This document shows positions 48,006 to 53,520 of a DNA stretch of 64,000 nt, piece after piece. A program made the translations under genes and the position numbers. Below the pieces are notes generated by a model. It had not been told where the DNA came from. It saw nothing but the letters and a program-made list of their open reading frames with translations, and searched no databases. Where the stretch lies: contig AYMD01000009.1 of assembly GCA_000495735.1 (NCBI GenBank), positions 158,575-222,574 on the forward strand, given 5' to 3'. Numbering within the stretch: position 1 is the first letter of the stretch; each line of letters starts with the position of its first letter. The DNA is from an uncultured Acidilobus sp. JCHS. GTDB lineage: Archaea > Thermoproteota > Thermoprotei_A > Sulfolobales > Acidilobaceae.

Positions 48006-48926
48006 GTGTTCGATAAGTTCAAGGAGGCTCTGGGCAGGTTCGTCTCTAATGTCAAGGAGAAGATAGAAACTAAGGAGGTTAAGCCAGAGGACCTCGAGGG
48101 TCCACTCGAAGAGCTGGTCCTTGGGCTAGTGGACGCTGGCGTGGCCTATGACGCTGCCGCTTCAATAGCCGAGTCGCTCAAGAAAGGCCTTATTGGCAAG
48201 CGGGTGTCCAGGGGTTCCAATGCTGAGGACCTGGTTAAGGAGGCCCTCCAGGAAGCCCTAATTAAAGAGCTGTCCCTGACAGGACCTGACATAGTCTCTG
48301 AGGCGAAGAGCGCCTGCTCCTCAGGCAAGCCCTACGTGATAGCCTTCTTCGGCGTTAACGGCGTTGGCAAGACCACAACGATAGCTAAGGTTGCCAAGTA
48401 CCTGAAGGACCACGGGGTCAGCTGCCTGATAGTGGCCGCTGACACCTTCAGGGCTGGCGCCCAAGAACAGCTTAAGGTCCACGCCGAGAGGCTAGGCGTT
48501 CCGTTTCTCGGAGGCCCTTATGGATCTGACCCGGCCAGCGTGGCCTATAACGCCATAGCGTCTGCCCAGAGAAGGGGGATCTGCGCAGTTCTGCTTGACA
48601 CGGCTGGCAGAATGCACATAGATGTGGACCTGATGAACGAGCTTAAGAAAGTTGTTAAAGTAGCTAAGCCCCACCTAAAGGTTCTCGTCGTGGACTCGCT
48701 CACAGGAAACGACGCAGTCGAGCAGGCCCGGACGTTTAACGATAACATAGGCGTTGACGCGGTCATAGTCACTAAGGTCGACGCCGATGCGAAGGGCGGA
48801 ACGATAGTCTCCGTTGTCTCTACCATAAAGAGGCCAGTGATATTCGTGGGCATAGGCCAGGGGTATGAGGACCTAGAGAGCCTTGACGTCAAAAAATTCG
48901 TGTCGACGCTGATTAGCGGCCTCTAA
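48006..48926 (+). CDS. ftsY: Signal recognition particle receptor FtsY
   Basis: 306-residue SRP GTPase. N-terminal helical N domain (about 1-100), then G1 GVNGVGKTT (about 114-122), AADTFRAGAQEQL insertion box, DTAGRMH and TKVDADAKGG, ending in GIGQGYEDLESLD. Receives SRP-ribosome complexes at the membrane. GTG start two nt after pfdA. No long acidic A domain, as is usual for archaea. Its last 4 nt overlap the convergent CBS gene. Confidence 0.96.
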   Translation: MFDKFKEALGRFVSNVKEKIETKEVKPEDLEGPLEELVLGLVDAGVAYDAAASIAESLKKGLIGKRVSRGSNAEDLVKEALQEALIKELSLTGPDIVSEAKSACSSGKPYVIAFFGVNGVGKTTTIAKVAKYLKDHGVSCLIVAADTFRAGAQEQLKVHAERLGVPFLGGPYGSDPASVAYNAIASAQRRGICAVLLDTAGRMHIDVDLMNELKKVVKVAKPHLKVLVVDSLTGNDAVEQARTFNDNIGVDAVIVTKVDADAKGGTIVSVVSTIKRPVIFVGIGQGYEDLESLDVKKFVSTLISGL

Positions 48927-49786
48927 AGCGCCCTTGCCACAAGCGCTACATAATCGTACTTCGTGACTATGCCTACGACCTTGTTTCCCTCGTCAACTAC
49001 TGGGATGCACCCTATTCTCTCCTTCGCCATGGTCTTCGCTACATCAGCGGCTTCATCGTTCGGCGAAGCAGTTATGGGGTCCTTCGTCATGATGTCCTCA
49101 GCCGTGGGGACTAGGTAGCTTCTCAGGCTCACTATCTTATCCTTAAGCGCGTCAACAACCTTCCTTCTGAGATACCGGTCCTTACCTCGCGAGGCAAGGA
49201 CCTGCATGGGTATGTAGGCTAAGGCCACGTCCTTCTCCGCGATGACCCCAAGCAGTCTCCCCTCGTCGTCCGTTATAACGACCTTCTTAGCCGGATCCGC
49301 TTCCATTAACTTGATAACATAAAATATAGAGTGCGTTGGCCTGGCCTTCGGGAACTCTGACCTCATTATATCGCTCACCTTGAGCTCTCCTGCGTACTTA
49401 TCTCCATAGGCCCTGACCAGGTCTGTCCTCGTTATGATGCCAACAAGCTTGTCCTCCTTGCCTACAACCGGCAGACCCCCTATCTTGTGCTTGATCATGA
49501 GATGGGCAGCGGCCTTAATTGACCTAGAGGGGCTTATAGTCACAAGGTCCTTGGACATAGCTTCAGAGACCTTTATCTCGTCCAGCGTCTTAGCGTAGTT
49601 GACTCCTGTTACGGCCTCCACTACGTCGGCCATAGTAATTATGCCTACGGGCTTCTCTGACCGGTCCACTACAACGAGCCTGCCGACGTCCTTCTTAAAC
49701 ATGAGGTTCCTTGCGTAGGCCAAGGTGTCCGTAGGACTGATGACATATACTGGTGAACTCATGTAGCCCGAGACCCTAGGCGCCAT
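48923..49786 (-). CDS. Four-CBS-domain protein (array member 3)
   Basis: 287 residues forming four CBS motifs: about 5-58 (YMSSPVYVISPTDTLAYA), 70-125 (EAMSKDLVTISPSRSI), 137-190 (IMRSEFPKARPTHSI) and 230-285 (IMTKDPITASPNDEA). CBS pairs (Bateman modules) bind adenosine nucleotides or SAM and control enzymes or channels; here no catalytic domain is attached. 4 nt separate it from the next CBS gene upstream. Last of three related genes in one transcription unit. Confidence 0.88.
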   Translation of the reverse strand: MAPRVSGYMSSPVYVISPTDTLAYARNLMFKKDVGRLVVVDRSEKPVGIITMADVVEAVTGVNYAKTLDEIKVSEAMSKDLVTISPSRSIKAAAHLMIKHKIGGLPVVGKEDKLVGIITRTDLVRAYGDKYAGELKVSDIMRSEFPKARPTHSIFYVIKLMEADPAKKVVITDDEGRLLGVIAEKDVALAYIPMQVLASRGKDRYLRRKVVDALKDKIVSLRSYLVPTAEDIMTKDPITASPNDEAADVAKTMAKERIGCIPVVDEGNKVVGIVTKYDYVALVARAL

Positions 49787-49790
49787 GTTC

Positions 49791-50783
49791 TCACCTCAGG
49801 GAGAGGGCAAGAAGGACGTCCCTTTCCGTTATTATACCCTTGGCCTCACCGGCCTCGTCAATCACTATAAGGCTGTTAGTGTTAAGCTTGTTCATTAGCT
49901 CTGCCGCGGCGCTGACGTCCTCAGAGTCCTTTATAGTATAGATGTCCTTGGACATCACCTCTGTGACCTTAGTTGAGAGCGCCTCCTCGATGTTACGGCC
50001 CGTTATTACGCTGAAAGCGGTATGGGAGCCGAAGTAGGACACTATGTCGAGCGCGCTCACTACGCCAACTATTGTTCCCTCCTCCCTTGATACCACCGGA
50101 AGCCTCCTAAAGCCGTAAAGCGACATAAGCTGCGCAGCCCTCTTTATGCTATCGTCGCTGTACGTCACGACGAGGTTTGAGGTCATAACATCGGTTACCT
50201 TAATGCTGATCTCCTTGTTCACTAGGTGCCTAACAAGGTCGTGCTCTGTCACAACGCCTTGGGGCAACCCCTGCTTGTCAATAATAGGCAGGAAGCCTAT
50301 GCCATTGAGCACCATGACTCTCAAGGCGTCTGTTATCCTGGCGTTGCTTAAGACATAGACTGGCGTTGGGTTCATTATGGACTCTACGGTCTCAGAGTTA
50401 AGCGCTCTATATATGTCACCCCCATGGCGCTCTCGCACAATGTTATAAGAGGAACCTCCAAGGTAACCTATGAAGTCCATCGCCGTGACCGTTCCCTTTA
50501 GCGCGCCCCTAGCGTCAACTACTACGAGGCCACGGACCCTCCTCTTATACATGAGCTCCACAGCGCTGATAATGGGACTAGTGAAAGTTATCGTTACCGG
50601 AGGCCTTGACGCTATAGTCATTATCTCGCCCTCCTTCTCCTTCACCCTCTGGCTCCAGTTCGGCTCGGCGTCAACCCTAAGGTAGCGGTAGACCTCAGCC
50701 TTCCTGACCGAGGGACCGCTCACTATGTTAGCCCTAGGGGAGATCCTTATTGTGGCGCGAGGCCTCTTGCTCATGGGCATCAC
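49791..50783 (-). CDS. Four-CBS-domain protein with basic N-terminal extension (array member 2)
   Basis: 330 residues. An N-terminal extension of about 55 residues rich in Arg/Lys and Pro (SKRPRATIRISPRANIV) is followed by four CBS motifs (about 60-115, 137-190, 198-253 and 273-330), the last beginning VMSKDIYTIKDSEDV. The extension could bind nucleic acid or a partner. Overlaps the upstream CBS gene by 4 nt and is 4 nt from the downstream one. Confidence 0.87.
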   Translation of the reverse strand: MMPMSKRPRATIRISPRANIVSGPSVRKAEVYRYLRVDAEPNWSQRVKEKEGEIMTIASRPPVTITFTSPIISAVELMYKRRVRGLVVVDARGALKGTVTAMDFIGYLGGSSYNIVRERHGGDIYRALNSETVESIMNPTPVYVLSNARITDALRVMVLNGIGFLPIIDKQGLPQGVVTEHDLVRHLVNKEISIKVTDVMTSNLVVTYSDDSIKRAAQLMSLYGFRRLPVVSREEGTIVGVVSALDIVSYFGSHTAFSVITGRNIEEALSTKVTEVMSKDIYTIKDSEDVSAAAELMNKLNTNSLIVIDEAGEAKGIITERDVLLALSLR

Positions 50784-51625
50784 CTCAGCACCTTAATTAC
50801 GTCCTCTCTGTCAACTATACCTATAAGCTTGAGATCCCTCACGCTATTAACAACTGGCACCCTGCCATAGCCCCTTGTAACCATGAGATCTGCTGCATCA
50901 ATGAGCTTCGACCAGGGCAGGACGTAGCTCGGAGGCCTAGTCATAGCGTCTCTGACCCGAGGCCCCTTAGCGGCCCCAGACTCGCTCTCCAGGTGGATCC
51001 TCGTGTAGCCCTTGGCCAAGAGGTCGTACTGTGTTATCATACCTATGAGCCTCCCGTCGCCGTCTATGACGGGTAATCCTGCATACCTAAGCTCGACCAT
51101 CTTCCTCCATATCTTCGCGACCGAGTCATCAGCCAGGGCTGACACGGGGTCAGAAGTCATGTAATCACTCACCGTCTTCTCCTTTAAGACCTCGGGGTAC
51201 TTCTGAACGAGGACCCTTATTACGTCACCTAATGAGAAGAACCCCAAGAACTTGTCCCCTTCCGTTACGGGGGTCTCCCACATATCGTAGCCTAACATCA
51301 TGTCCAAGGCTCTTGACACTGTTAAGGAAGGCTGAAGGACCAGCGGCGGAGCGACCGCCAGAGACCCCGCTGTGGCCTCGCTCTTTGATGAGGAGACCAT
51401 AAGAACATCCCCTCTAGTGATCATGCCAACGAACTTCCCTGTCTCAGCCTTGATTACAGCAATGCTCCTATACCCCTTTTCCCTCATCAACTTCCTAACG
51501 AAGGTCACGCTCGTGTCGTCAGATACCTTAGCTGAGATCGAAGCCTTGTCAAATATACTAGATATAGGGAGCCCCAACAGCTGATTAAGGACCTCCTTCC
51601 TCTGGGTAGGAGCCGTCACAGTCAT
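50780..51625 (-). CDS. Four-CBS-domain protein (array member 1)
   Basis: 281 residues with CBS motifs at about 17-72, 85-142, 155-210 and 228-281 (YMTSDPVSALADDSV and AMTRPPSYVLPWSKL are clear). First of three consecutive four-CBS genes; the three proteins are paralogous but well diverged. The gene starts at 51625, with a Rho-like A/T-poor upstream stretch; no obvious TATA box is seen within 40 nt, although AGATTTAAGTT occurs at about 51668-51678 on the other strand. Confidence 0.87.
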   Translation of the reverse strand: MTVTAPTQRKEVLNQLLGLPISSIFDKASISAKVSDDTSVTFVRKLMREKGYRSIAVIKAETGKFVGMITRGDVLMVSSSKSEATAGSLAVAPPLVLQPSLTVSRALDMMLGYDMWETPVTEGDKFLGFFSLGDVIRVLVQKYPEVLKEKTVSDYMTSDPVSALADDSVAKIWRKMVELRYAGLPVIDGDGRLIGMITQYDLLAKGYTRIHLESESGAAKGPRVRDAMTRPPSYVLPWSKLIDAADLMVTRGYGRVPVVNSVRDLKLIGIVDREDVIKVLR

Positions 51626-52019: not shown

Positions 52020-52841
52020 TTAGCTCTCCTGTCGGGTCTTCTTAACTTCGGGACACAAGTCTTCCTGTCCTTCACAGTACTTAGCCAGCACCAGCACCTT
52101 GACGTCCGAGCCCGTCTTAGACTTAACCAAGTCCCTTATCTTGGGCTCTGAACCAAAGATCGCCAGAACCCCTGCTATGGAGACCTGCCTCATCTTTACC
52201 ACGTCTATAAGCGCTAAGAGCTGAGAGGCCTTATCTCCATCCACTGATACAAGCAGCGCCCTCCCCCTCCTCTGTATGCACTCCCTCGGGAAGATCAGGG
52301 TATCATAATAGTCCTGAGACACCTTGTAGCTCTTCACTATTAGGTGCCTTGAGTGCGGCGACCTACTGGCGACGCAGAGCCTAGCGTGAAGGGCGTCGGC
52401 CAGGATAGCGCCGAACGCCGTCGAGTAGCCATCGGGGCCCGTTATTACAACGTTAACCCTGTCCCCTTTAAGGGTGCTGATGACCTTCAGCTCAGCCAAC
52501 TCCATGATCCCAGGACTGCTGAGAACCTGCCATGGCTCCTTGCTATCCTTTATAGCCCTCTCAAAGGCCTCGTCTATCAGCTTCTCGTCCTCTATCCTCT
52601 GGAGGAGCCTCTCTGCAGTGACCCTCTCAGGCACGCTCCGCAACGAGACGTACCTCCACAATATTTGGGCTGAGACTCCGAGCCTCTCCTCGAGCTCCTT
52701 AAACGAGTAGAAGTGCTTAAGCGCGTTGAGGACCTTGAACAGCGTGAACTTCAAGTTCCCCTCGCTGTTAGTCAAAGACGGAAGGGCAGAGCCTGATTTC
52801 TCGGTCCCTCCCTTGCTCTGATCCTCAACGGAGGCCTCCAT
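52020..52841 (-). CDS. HTH plus phosphoribosyltransferase-like regulator (GfcR/PurR-type architecture)
   Basis: 273 residues. After a polar tail, a helix-turn-helix occupies about 35-85 (FYSFKELEERLGVSAQILWRY), followed by an alpha/beta domain of PRTase-fold shape (VNVVITGPDGYSTAFGAILADALHARL, about 128-154). The PRPP-binding stretch, normally Asp-Asp rich, is degenerate here (RALLVSVDGDKASQLLALID), so the domain probably senses rather than catalyses. Archaeal relatives regulate sugar or purine metabolism. Its stop touches the tnpB relic. Confidence 0.6.
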   Translation of the reverse strand: MEASVEDQSKGGTEKSGSALPSLTNSEGNLKFTLFKVLNALKHFYSFKELEERLGVSAQILWRYVSLRSVPERVTAERLLQRIEDEKLIDEAFERAIKDSKEPWQVLSSPGIMELAELKVISTLKGDRVNVVITGPDGYSTAFGAILADALHARLCVASRSPHSRHLIVKSYKVSQDYYDTLIFPRECIQRRGRALLVSVDGDKASQLLALIDVVKMRQVSIAGVLAIFGSEPKIRDLVKSKTGSDVKVLVLAKYCEGQEDLCPEVKKTRQES

Positions 52842-52910: not shown

Positions 52911-53084
52911 CTAAAACTTCTCTTCTTCCTCTTCCTCGAACTCCTCCTCTTCGCCTTCCTCCTCGAACTCTTCGAACTCCTCCTCTTCGCCTTCCTCGCC
53001 TAGCTCTTCCTCCTCGCCGAACTCCTCCTCTTCCTCGAACTCCTCCTCTTCGCCTTCCTCCTCGTCAAAGACCTTCACGGGCAT
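52911..53084 (-). CDS. 57-residue poly-glutamate protein
   Basis: ATG at 53084 to TAG at 52911 gives 57 residues, of which 37 are Glu, 7 Phe and 5 or so Gly. The Glu runs are broken by Phe or Gly at regular intervals (EEEEFEE, EEFGEEEE type units), giving an imperfect repeat about 10-14 residues long. Only MPVKVFD and the C-terminal EKF lie outside it. A TATA box (TTTATATAAT, about 53121-53130 on the minus strand) and a GAGTGAT ribosome-binding site precede the ATG, which argues for expression. Function unknown; a DNA-mimic, chaperone-like or metal-binding role are possibilities only. Confidence 0.72.
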   Translation of the reverse strand: MPVKVFDEEEGEEEEFEEEEEFGEEEELGEEGEEEEFEEFEEEGEEEEFEEEEEEKF

Positions 53085-53289
53085 TCAAATCACTCTATTG
53101 GCTTAGGCGCTCTGGGGCAAATTATATAAATTTATACCTATAGAGCTTGATATTTTGTATCGCTGAGCGTTTAAAATAAAACTACAAGAAGTTAGCAGCC
53201 AAAGGAATGAGGAGGTCACCAATCAACGTTAGGCGGAGACCATAATAAGAAGTATAACCCTCTAAGCCCGGCTCGTGTAGGGAGACAGG

Positions 53290-53520
53290 ATGCCAACGAG
53301 GGCCCCTGTCAGGAGGGTTTCACTTAAGGCGTGCAAGAGCTGCGGGGCTTTAGTGCCAAGGAATGTCAACGTTTGCCCCGTATGCGGCGGCACCGCGTTC
53401 GTTGACGAGTGGGAGGGCGTAGCTATAATACTTGACAACTCTGAGCTAGCCAAGAGGCTTAAGGCAAGCTATAAGGGGACCTTTGCTATTAAGGTAGCCG
53501 GGACCTATGTCTTCAAGTAG
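53290..53520 (+). CDS. spt4: Transcription elongation factor Spt4 (RNA polymerase subunit E'')
   Basis: 76-residue Spt4, partner of Spt5 in the elongation clamp on RNA polymerase. Zinc ligands Cys15/Cys18 and Cys29/Cys32 (KACKSCG, CPVCGG). The C-terminal SYKGTFAIKVAG strand pair is conserved. An ATAATAAG stretch at about 53241-53248 may be its promoter. Overlaps the next gene by 14 nt, a common archaeal arrangement. Confidence 0.94.
   Translation: MPTRAPVRRVSLKACKSCGALVPRNVNVCPVCGGTAFVDEWEGVAIILDNSELAKRLKASYKGTFAIKVAGTYVFK

Follow-up and report, generated by a model that had tools for sequence, protein, structure and literature searches.

The microprotein gene and its neighborhood

The window, a 64,000-nucleotide stretch of a contig from an uncultured Acidilobus sp. 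JCHS, contains a short ORF that starts with ATG and whose product, MPVKVFDEEEGEEEEFEEEEEFGEEEELGEEGEEEEFEEFEEEGEEEEFEEEEEEKF, is 65% glutamate (Table 1). An earlier note on this DNA had described it as a glutamate-dominated protein encoded by a genuine gene under a promoter of its own, with a composition foreign to known archaeal families, and on all these counts the description stands. A TATA box lies ~40 bases upstream of the ORF, with TTATATAAT common to 4/4 genus members in the alignment and CATATAAT in one base-variant, and the SD-like sequence before the start is matched at the same place by a fuller GAGGTGA in the other three genus members. Profile searches, of Pfam with the window ORF and of NCBIfam with five members of the family described below, each recovered 0 families at E <= 1. 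Relatives neither lack the ORF nor retain just a GA-rich repeat without a frame, the two outcomes that the same note had named as speaking against a gene: the reading frame stays open in three genus relatives although its length differs, the start, SD and C-terminal aromatic residue are likewise kept, and the orthologs in G001-G003 and G007 all end in EF or KF, the window ORF itself in KF.

Table 1. Features of the microprotein locus in the window
Feature	Coordinates	Strand	Remarks
Acidic-aromatic microprotein ORF	52911..53084	-	57 aa, 37 Glu, Phe/Gly interruptions, C-terminal Phe
SD-like GAGTGAT	53089..53095	-	few bases 5' of the ATG; read from the sequence
TATA box (TTTATATAAT) of the microprotein gene	~53121..53131	-	aligned in four genus members
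HTH + phosphoribosyltransferase (PRTase)-like gene	52020..52841	-	NF006328, E 1.2e-16, below cut-off
spt4	53290..53520	+	PF06093, E 2e-9; divergent neighbor, context only

The flanking genes are those given in the earlier note, an HTH/PRTase regulator and spt4, but their arrangement calls for a different reading: the HTH/PRTase-like gene lies downstream on the same strand, across a 69 bp gap holding its own TATA-like sequence, whereas spt4 is divergent, and the microprotein ORF thus sits in a divergent promoter region. Among the loci examined, this arrangement is common to G001-G003 and G007 only. The HTH/PRTase-like neighbor was found only in Acidilobus and Caldisphaera-like genomes, and is probably context lying outside the system. 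Elsewhere in the window (48923-51625, minus strand), three consecutive same-strand genes encode proteins of 281-330 aa that look like CBS-domain proteins, an apparent tandem amplification.

Composition and distribution of the family

The window ORF belongs to a previously unnamed archaeal family of acidic-aromatic microproteins of 21-67 aa, of which a literature search found no description. Glu accounts for two thirds of all residues in the family and Trp for 15%, with Phe instead in the window genus; typical products are MREEEEWEEEEWEEEEWEEEEW, MLEEEWEEEEWWEEEEEWEEEEW and MEEDWEDIEEEDWEDIEEEDWEEDEW. When relatives' loci were translated, an acidic ORF was found at nearly every poly-Glu DNA match, with Trp replacing Phe in most genera.

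The genome-wide counts come from pattern searches. In the window genome, both matches to the codon pattern for EEEE[F/W]EEEE fall inside the one microprotein ORF. At the scale of the order it is present in 93/197 genomes, nearly always at a single locus, as against ~4 for a reversed-pattern control, which places the pattern of the window ORF far beyond chance. The Trp-only pattern was found in 69/144 genomes at class scale and in 147/397 at phylum scale (reversed controls: 2 and 3 genomes, respectively). The strict terminal form, EEEWEEEEW followed by a stop, retrieved 59 stretches from ~85,000 named prokaryote genomes, exclusively from archaea, the carriers including Bathyarchaeota, Desulfurococcales, Pyrodictiaceae, Ignisphaera, Sulfolobales, Thermoproteaceae, Fervidicoccus and two Thermococcus genomes; none of the viral contigs had it. 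A relaxed pattern recovers relocated copies that the strict one misses, in Saccharolobus-like genomes and other families. There is usually one family locus per genome, and none was found in the Nitrososphaeria-like families f17 and f51, though ABCE1 is present there.

For what we propose to call the EW microprotein family, the defining features are a short ORF with at least ~55% acidic residues, spaced aromatic residues, a C-terminal aromatic residue and an SD, usually at one locus per genome. All of these are seen in the window ORF, with its 57 aa, 65% Glu, spaced Phe, KF end, GAGTGAT and, by pattern, single locus. Its composition, single copy, terminal aromatic residue and SD, together with its Trp-bearing and mixed relatives, lead us to place it in the family as a putative divergent member of Phe-type, longer and relocated: Trp occurs in the genus-level relatives G002 and G003, and mixed Phe/Trp members are seen in sister genera (L005, L026, L030). 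Common descent of the Phe- and Trp-types is beyond proof for two-letter sequences such as these; a convergent origin in the window genus is possible, if less economical.

The two Thermococcus genomes encode Glu/Trp/Phe ORFs of 51-53 aa (L205 4235-4396 and L177 2450-2605, both on the minus strand), which are syntenic by a metallophosphoesterase gene, followed in L205 by a phosphate permease, and lie away from ABCE1. These copies fall outside Thermoproteota, and either transfer or old inheritance is possible.

Coding evidence and peptide architecture

Coding tests were performed on 127 distinct reading frames of the family, and show it to be constrained and translated-looking, the gene having a promoter, an SD and a terminator of its own. 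The ratio of Glu to Asp codons (GAR:GAY) is 2818:87, i.e. 32:1. Close relatives differ almost solely by synonymous changes, with pN/pS at ~0.04 (0.036) across 30 independent pairs, a rough figure because synonymous sites are near saturation. An SD-like sequence precedes the start in 107/127 frames (shuffled sequences: 20.8 +/- 3.9). Across the family, TATA-like sequences are most frequent between -60 and -40. T-tracts, the usual archaeal termination signal, occur within 80 bases past the stop in 106/127 (~28 expected).

In almost every member, the Glu runs set in around residue 2-10, and a terminal Trp is present in 107/127 frames. The aromatic residues are most often spaced by 5 and their positions lack helical periodicity, which speaks for a chain of stickers and spacers and against an amphipathic helix. 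Thus, the family peptides are predicted to be intrinsically disordered, with regularly spaced aromatic stickers. AlphaFold2, run on the product of the window ORF alone, predicted a single long helix (pLDDT 84 for the best model and 61-68 for the remaining four), which says little given the lack of an alignment and the poly-Glu sequence.

Linkage with ABCE1

When the neighboring proteins were clustered, only one partner came up repeatedly: ABCE1/Rli1, an ATPase whose task is to split ribosomes once termination has occurred. Its gene follows the ORF directly, on the same strand, at 28 loci of a first set and 52 of a second (Bathyarchaeota and Thermoprotei), the two sets overlapping in organisms. 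The ORF is located immediately upstream of ABCE1, on the same strand, in most lineages (Bathyarchaeota, Ignisphaera/Pyrodictiaceae, Sulfolobaceae and others), and the genes further upstream vary by clade: MoaD/ThiS-type or ribosomal S17e neighbors in some and asparaginase in others. The stop-to-start gap clusters within clades (~125 bases in Bathyarchaeota, 55-120 in Ignisphaera-type genomes) and spans 42 to 416 bp; in Sulfolobaceae, a MEEDWEDIEEEDWEDIEEEDWEEDEW-type ORF lies 35-53 bp upstream at 16/20 ABCE1 loci.

A converse scan started from ABCE1 in genomes picked regardless of adjacency, many of them for being without the strict pattern, plus Sulfolobaceae. At 25/48 ABCE1 loci, it recovered a family-type ORF on the same strand within 700 nt upstream. 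Qualifying ORFs numbered 26 in 33.6 kb of upstream strand sequence, one of them an RPB9-like acidic tail, against 1 in the other 261 kb scanned, which is itself a family member.

An RPB9-like zinc-ribbon gene adjoins ABCE1 and separates it from the ORF in three more families. A protein of this RPB9/TFS-like type, with a single zinc ribbon and an acidic tail (e.g. EYYEVFLETFSEEESGSEE), is coded directly beside ABCE1 at L219, L228, L229 and L236 (families f9, f13, f14 and f18), and is possibly another recycling-linked factor.

In the window's family (f1), in f5 and in part of Sulfolobaceae, the ORF has left the vicinity of ABCE1 and keeps its own signals. The window genome has its ABCE1 gene on contig C8 (L233) and its microprotein ORF on C9, and the two are also apart in the other f1 members examined. 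To read the ORF as a local peculiarity, placed by the earlier note between a regulator and spt4, is too narrow: that position is particular to Acidilobus and Caldisphaera-like genomes, and the phylum-wide neighbor is ABCE1. The relocated copies adjoin unrelated, often convergent genes; retention of TATA, SD and T-tract terminators in such settings argues that the product works in trans.

The Saccharolobus-like genome G183 (L088, L241) has a family member upstream of ABCE1 and another at a distant locus, and its congeners examined have a distant copy only; the pair is possibly a snapshot of relocation by duplication. In ABCE1 itself, residues 82, 117 and 503 (L213 numbering) are K/R in the peptide-bearing lineages and neutral in Nitrososphaeria-like ABCE1. 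The peptide-negative family f6, within a peptide-rich order, still has K/R at these positions, and the pattern is probably one of phylogeny.

A predicted accessory of ribosome recycling

The long association with ABCE1, and the survival of the gene when separated from it, lead to the proposal that the family encodes a trans-acting peptide functionally tied to recycling. Tentatively, we favor a disordered microprotein that acts as an accessory of ABCE1-driven ribosome recycling, though we stop short of regarding it as established. Under this proposal, the polyanionic chain with its Trp/Phe stickers would bind ABCE1, or a ribosomal surface exposed by ABCE1, loosely and multivalently, and would promote the action of ABCE1 on the 30S subunit or its release from it; both the binding and the effect on recycling are suggested by gene linkage. 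Ribosome binding, an alternative raised in the earlier note, would come near to this explanation. Adjacency may, however, reflect shared regulation rather than physical contact, and the ORF is off ABCE1 in several lineages, that of the window included, as well as in both Thermococcus copies. Moreover, since Nitrososphaeria-like genomes have ABCE1 without the family ORF, the peptide is not required for recycling as such.

The closest parallel in style is with eukaryotic eIF3j/Hcr1, of which we know no archaeal version. Its N-terminus in yeast has three acidic Trp motifs (SWDDE, DSWDAE and QSWDAEEEE), and the human protein has D-R/Q-W-E and NWDDDDDE. The short acidic segments around a single Trp resemble the archaeal peptides, the Sulfolobaceae form MEEDWEDIEEEDWEDI being close in style, a likeness of composition and not of homology. 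Work by Kratzat in 2021 on ABCE1-43S complexes is said to show eIF3j contacts to ABCE1, a detail on which we do not rely. The eIF3j protein has 258-265 aa, including a helical domain as well as basic regions, whereas the archaeal peptide consists of the acidic-aromatic part alone, coded beside ABCE1. Membership in the eIF3j/Hcr1 family is ruled out: the peptides are 21-67 aa of Glu and Trp only, lack the eIF3j domain of ~260 aa with its helical C-terminal half and show no detectable homology, and a search of the PDB with Hcr1 reached only eukaryotic eIF3j chains. The factor eIF3j/Hcr1 is a direct partner of ABCE1/RLI1 and an accessory of recycling (PMC3836723; PMC7196836): Hcr1/eIF3j binds RLI1 through the ABC2 domain of the latter, surplus RLI1 rescues Hcr1 loss (PMC3836723; PMC5737393), and eIF3j/Hcr1 has been discussed as an aid to recycling and to ABCE1 release (PMC5737393; PMC7196836; PMC3836723). 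The archaeal peptide would fill a role that in eukaryotes may belong to the acidic-Trp motifs at the N-terminus of eIF3j/Hcr1.

Two further classes of proteins invite comparison. Bacterial SSB and T7 gp2.5 likewise have an acidic run with a terminal aromatic residue, there as the C-terminal tail of an OB-fold protein, whereas here the whole protein is the tail. Eukaryotic acidic activation domains and the acidic-aromatic segments of histone chaperones share the combination of acidic and aromatic residues, presumed disorder and multivalent binding; unlike them, the family has no DNA-binding or chaperone domain, occurs in organisms without Mediator and is linked to a translation gene.

The likeness to activation domains underlies an unlikely alternative, in which the peptide is a nucleic-acid mimic or transcription-linked factor that, like a free activation domain, attaches to the basic surfaces presented by chromatin proteins or by the transcription machinery. 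Neighbors such as spt4 in the window, the RPB9-like zinc-ribbon gene (f9, f13, f14, f18) and a distant TFB-like gene could be taken to favor it, but these switch between families while ABCE1 recurs, and the RPB9-like gene itself adjoins ABCE1. Mimicry of DNA or RNA and a chromatin partner of the Alba/Sul7 type, as suggested in the earlier note, find no backing: no link with Alba, Cren7 or Sul7 genes was seen, and nothing connects the ORF to chromatin proteins or DNA binding.

Still less probable is a cis-acting leader, in which the N-terminal Glu run destabilizes the translating ribosome, and the ORF, as a sensor, adjusts expression of ABCE1 downstream of it to the stability of ribosomes, to Mg2+ or to the capacity for recycling. 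N-terminal D/E runs are known to destabilize bacterial and yeast ribosomes, and E. coli uses them as a Mg2+-linked environmental sensor (PMC9718836). Like MgtL-type leaders and other cases of intrinsic ribosome destabilization, the family ORF is short, carries its acidic run in the first residues and precedes what would be the regulated gene, ABCE1 being directly downstream in many lineages and, in Sulfolobaceae, very close. Against this, the ORF is often monocistronic: T-tract terminators follow it even where ABCE1 is next (48/60, 14 expected), and copies in several families are relocated or convergent, so that co-transcription with, and invariable position upstream of, a target are not observed. 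The gaps to ABCE1 vary, the downstream gene differs (f1, f5, f9 and other lineages keep the sequence without a translation gene downstream), and the mechanism needs neither regular Trp spacing nor a terminal Trp. On account of the terminators, relocation, gap variation and Trp regularity we reject a reading as leader peptide only; members in Sulfolobaceae may have a leader role.

We consider it more doubtful again that the peptide is a general polyanion, serving as charge buffer, anti-aggregation agent or sink for polyamines or metals in thermophiles, with the ABCE1 site merely securing high co-expression. Extreme charge and the many thermophiles among the carriers fit such a role, and a function free of partners would allow both relocation and change of length (21-67 aa). 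However, the preference for Glu over Asp, the regular Trp and the conserved C-terminal Trp exceed the needs of a charge sink, there is usually one locus per genome, and Bathyarchaeota include non-thermophiles. Finally, that the locus is not a protein gene at all but a repeat of purine-rich DNA or RNA, or else a poly-Ser frame on the antisense strand, such Ser frames being left open by GAR repeats, is very unlikely and is rejected on the wobble and SD tests: GAY is 32 times rarer though equally allowed in the Ser frame, and the start codon, SD, stop after the terminal Trp and third-position-only divergence all match the sense frame.

Implications

Going beyond the recycling accessory proposed above, and with slightly greater reserve, we suggest that the Glu/Trp microproteins could be an overlooked core accessory of archaeal recycling, the functional counterpart of the ABCE1-contacting part of eIF3j in lineages near the eukaryotic stem. 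The family would then have been largely missed because many members are below gene-calling length limits and because of low-complexity filters. If true, archaea would have a minimal cofactor for recycling, composed almost wholly of two amino acids. This would bear directly on the release of ABCE1 from the archaeal small subunit, the trigger of which, at the 30S, has been stated to be an open question (PMC7196836), and would hint at the role of the acidic-Trp motif of eIF3j. Even without a mechanism, a phylum-wide family of conserved proteins of 21-30 residues that the searched family libraries lack illustrates how much can escape notice through length cut-offs and low-complexity filters, and would represent an extreme natural case of function achieved via composition and spacing rather than via a fold.
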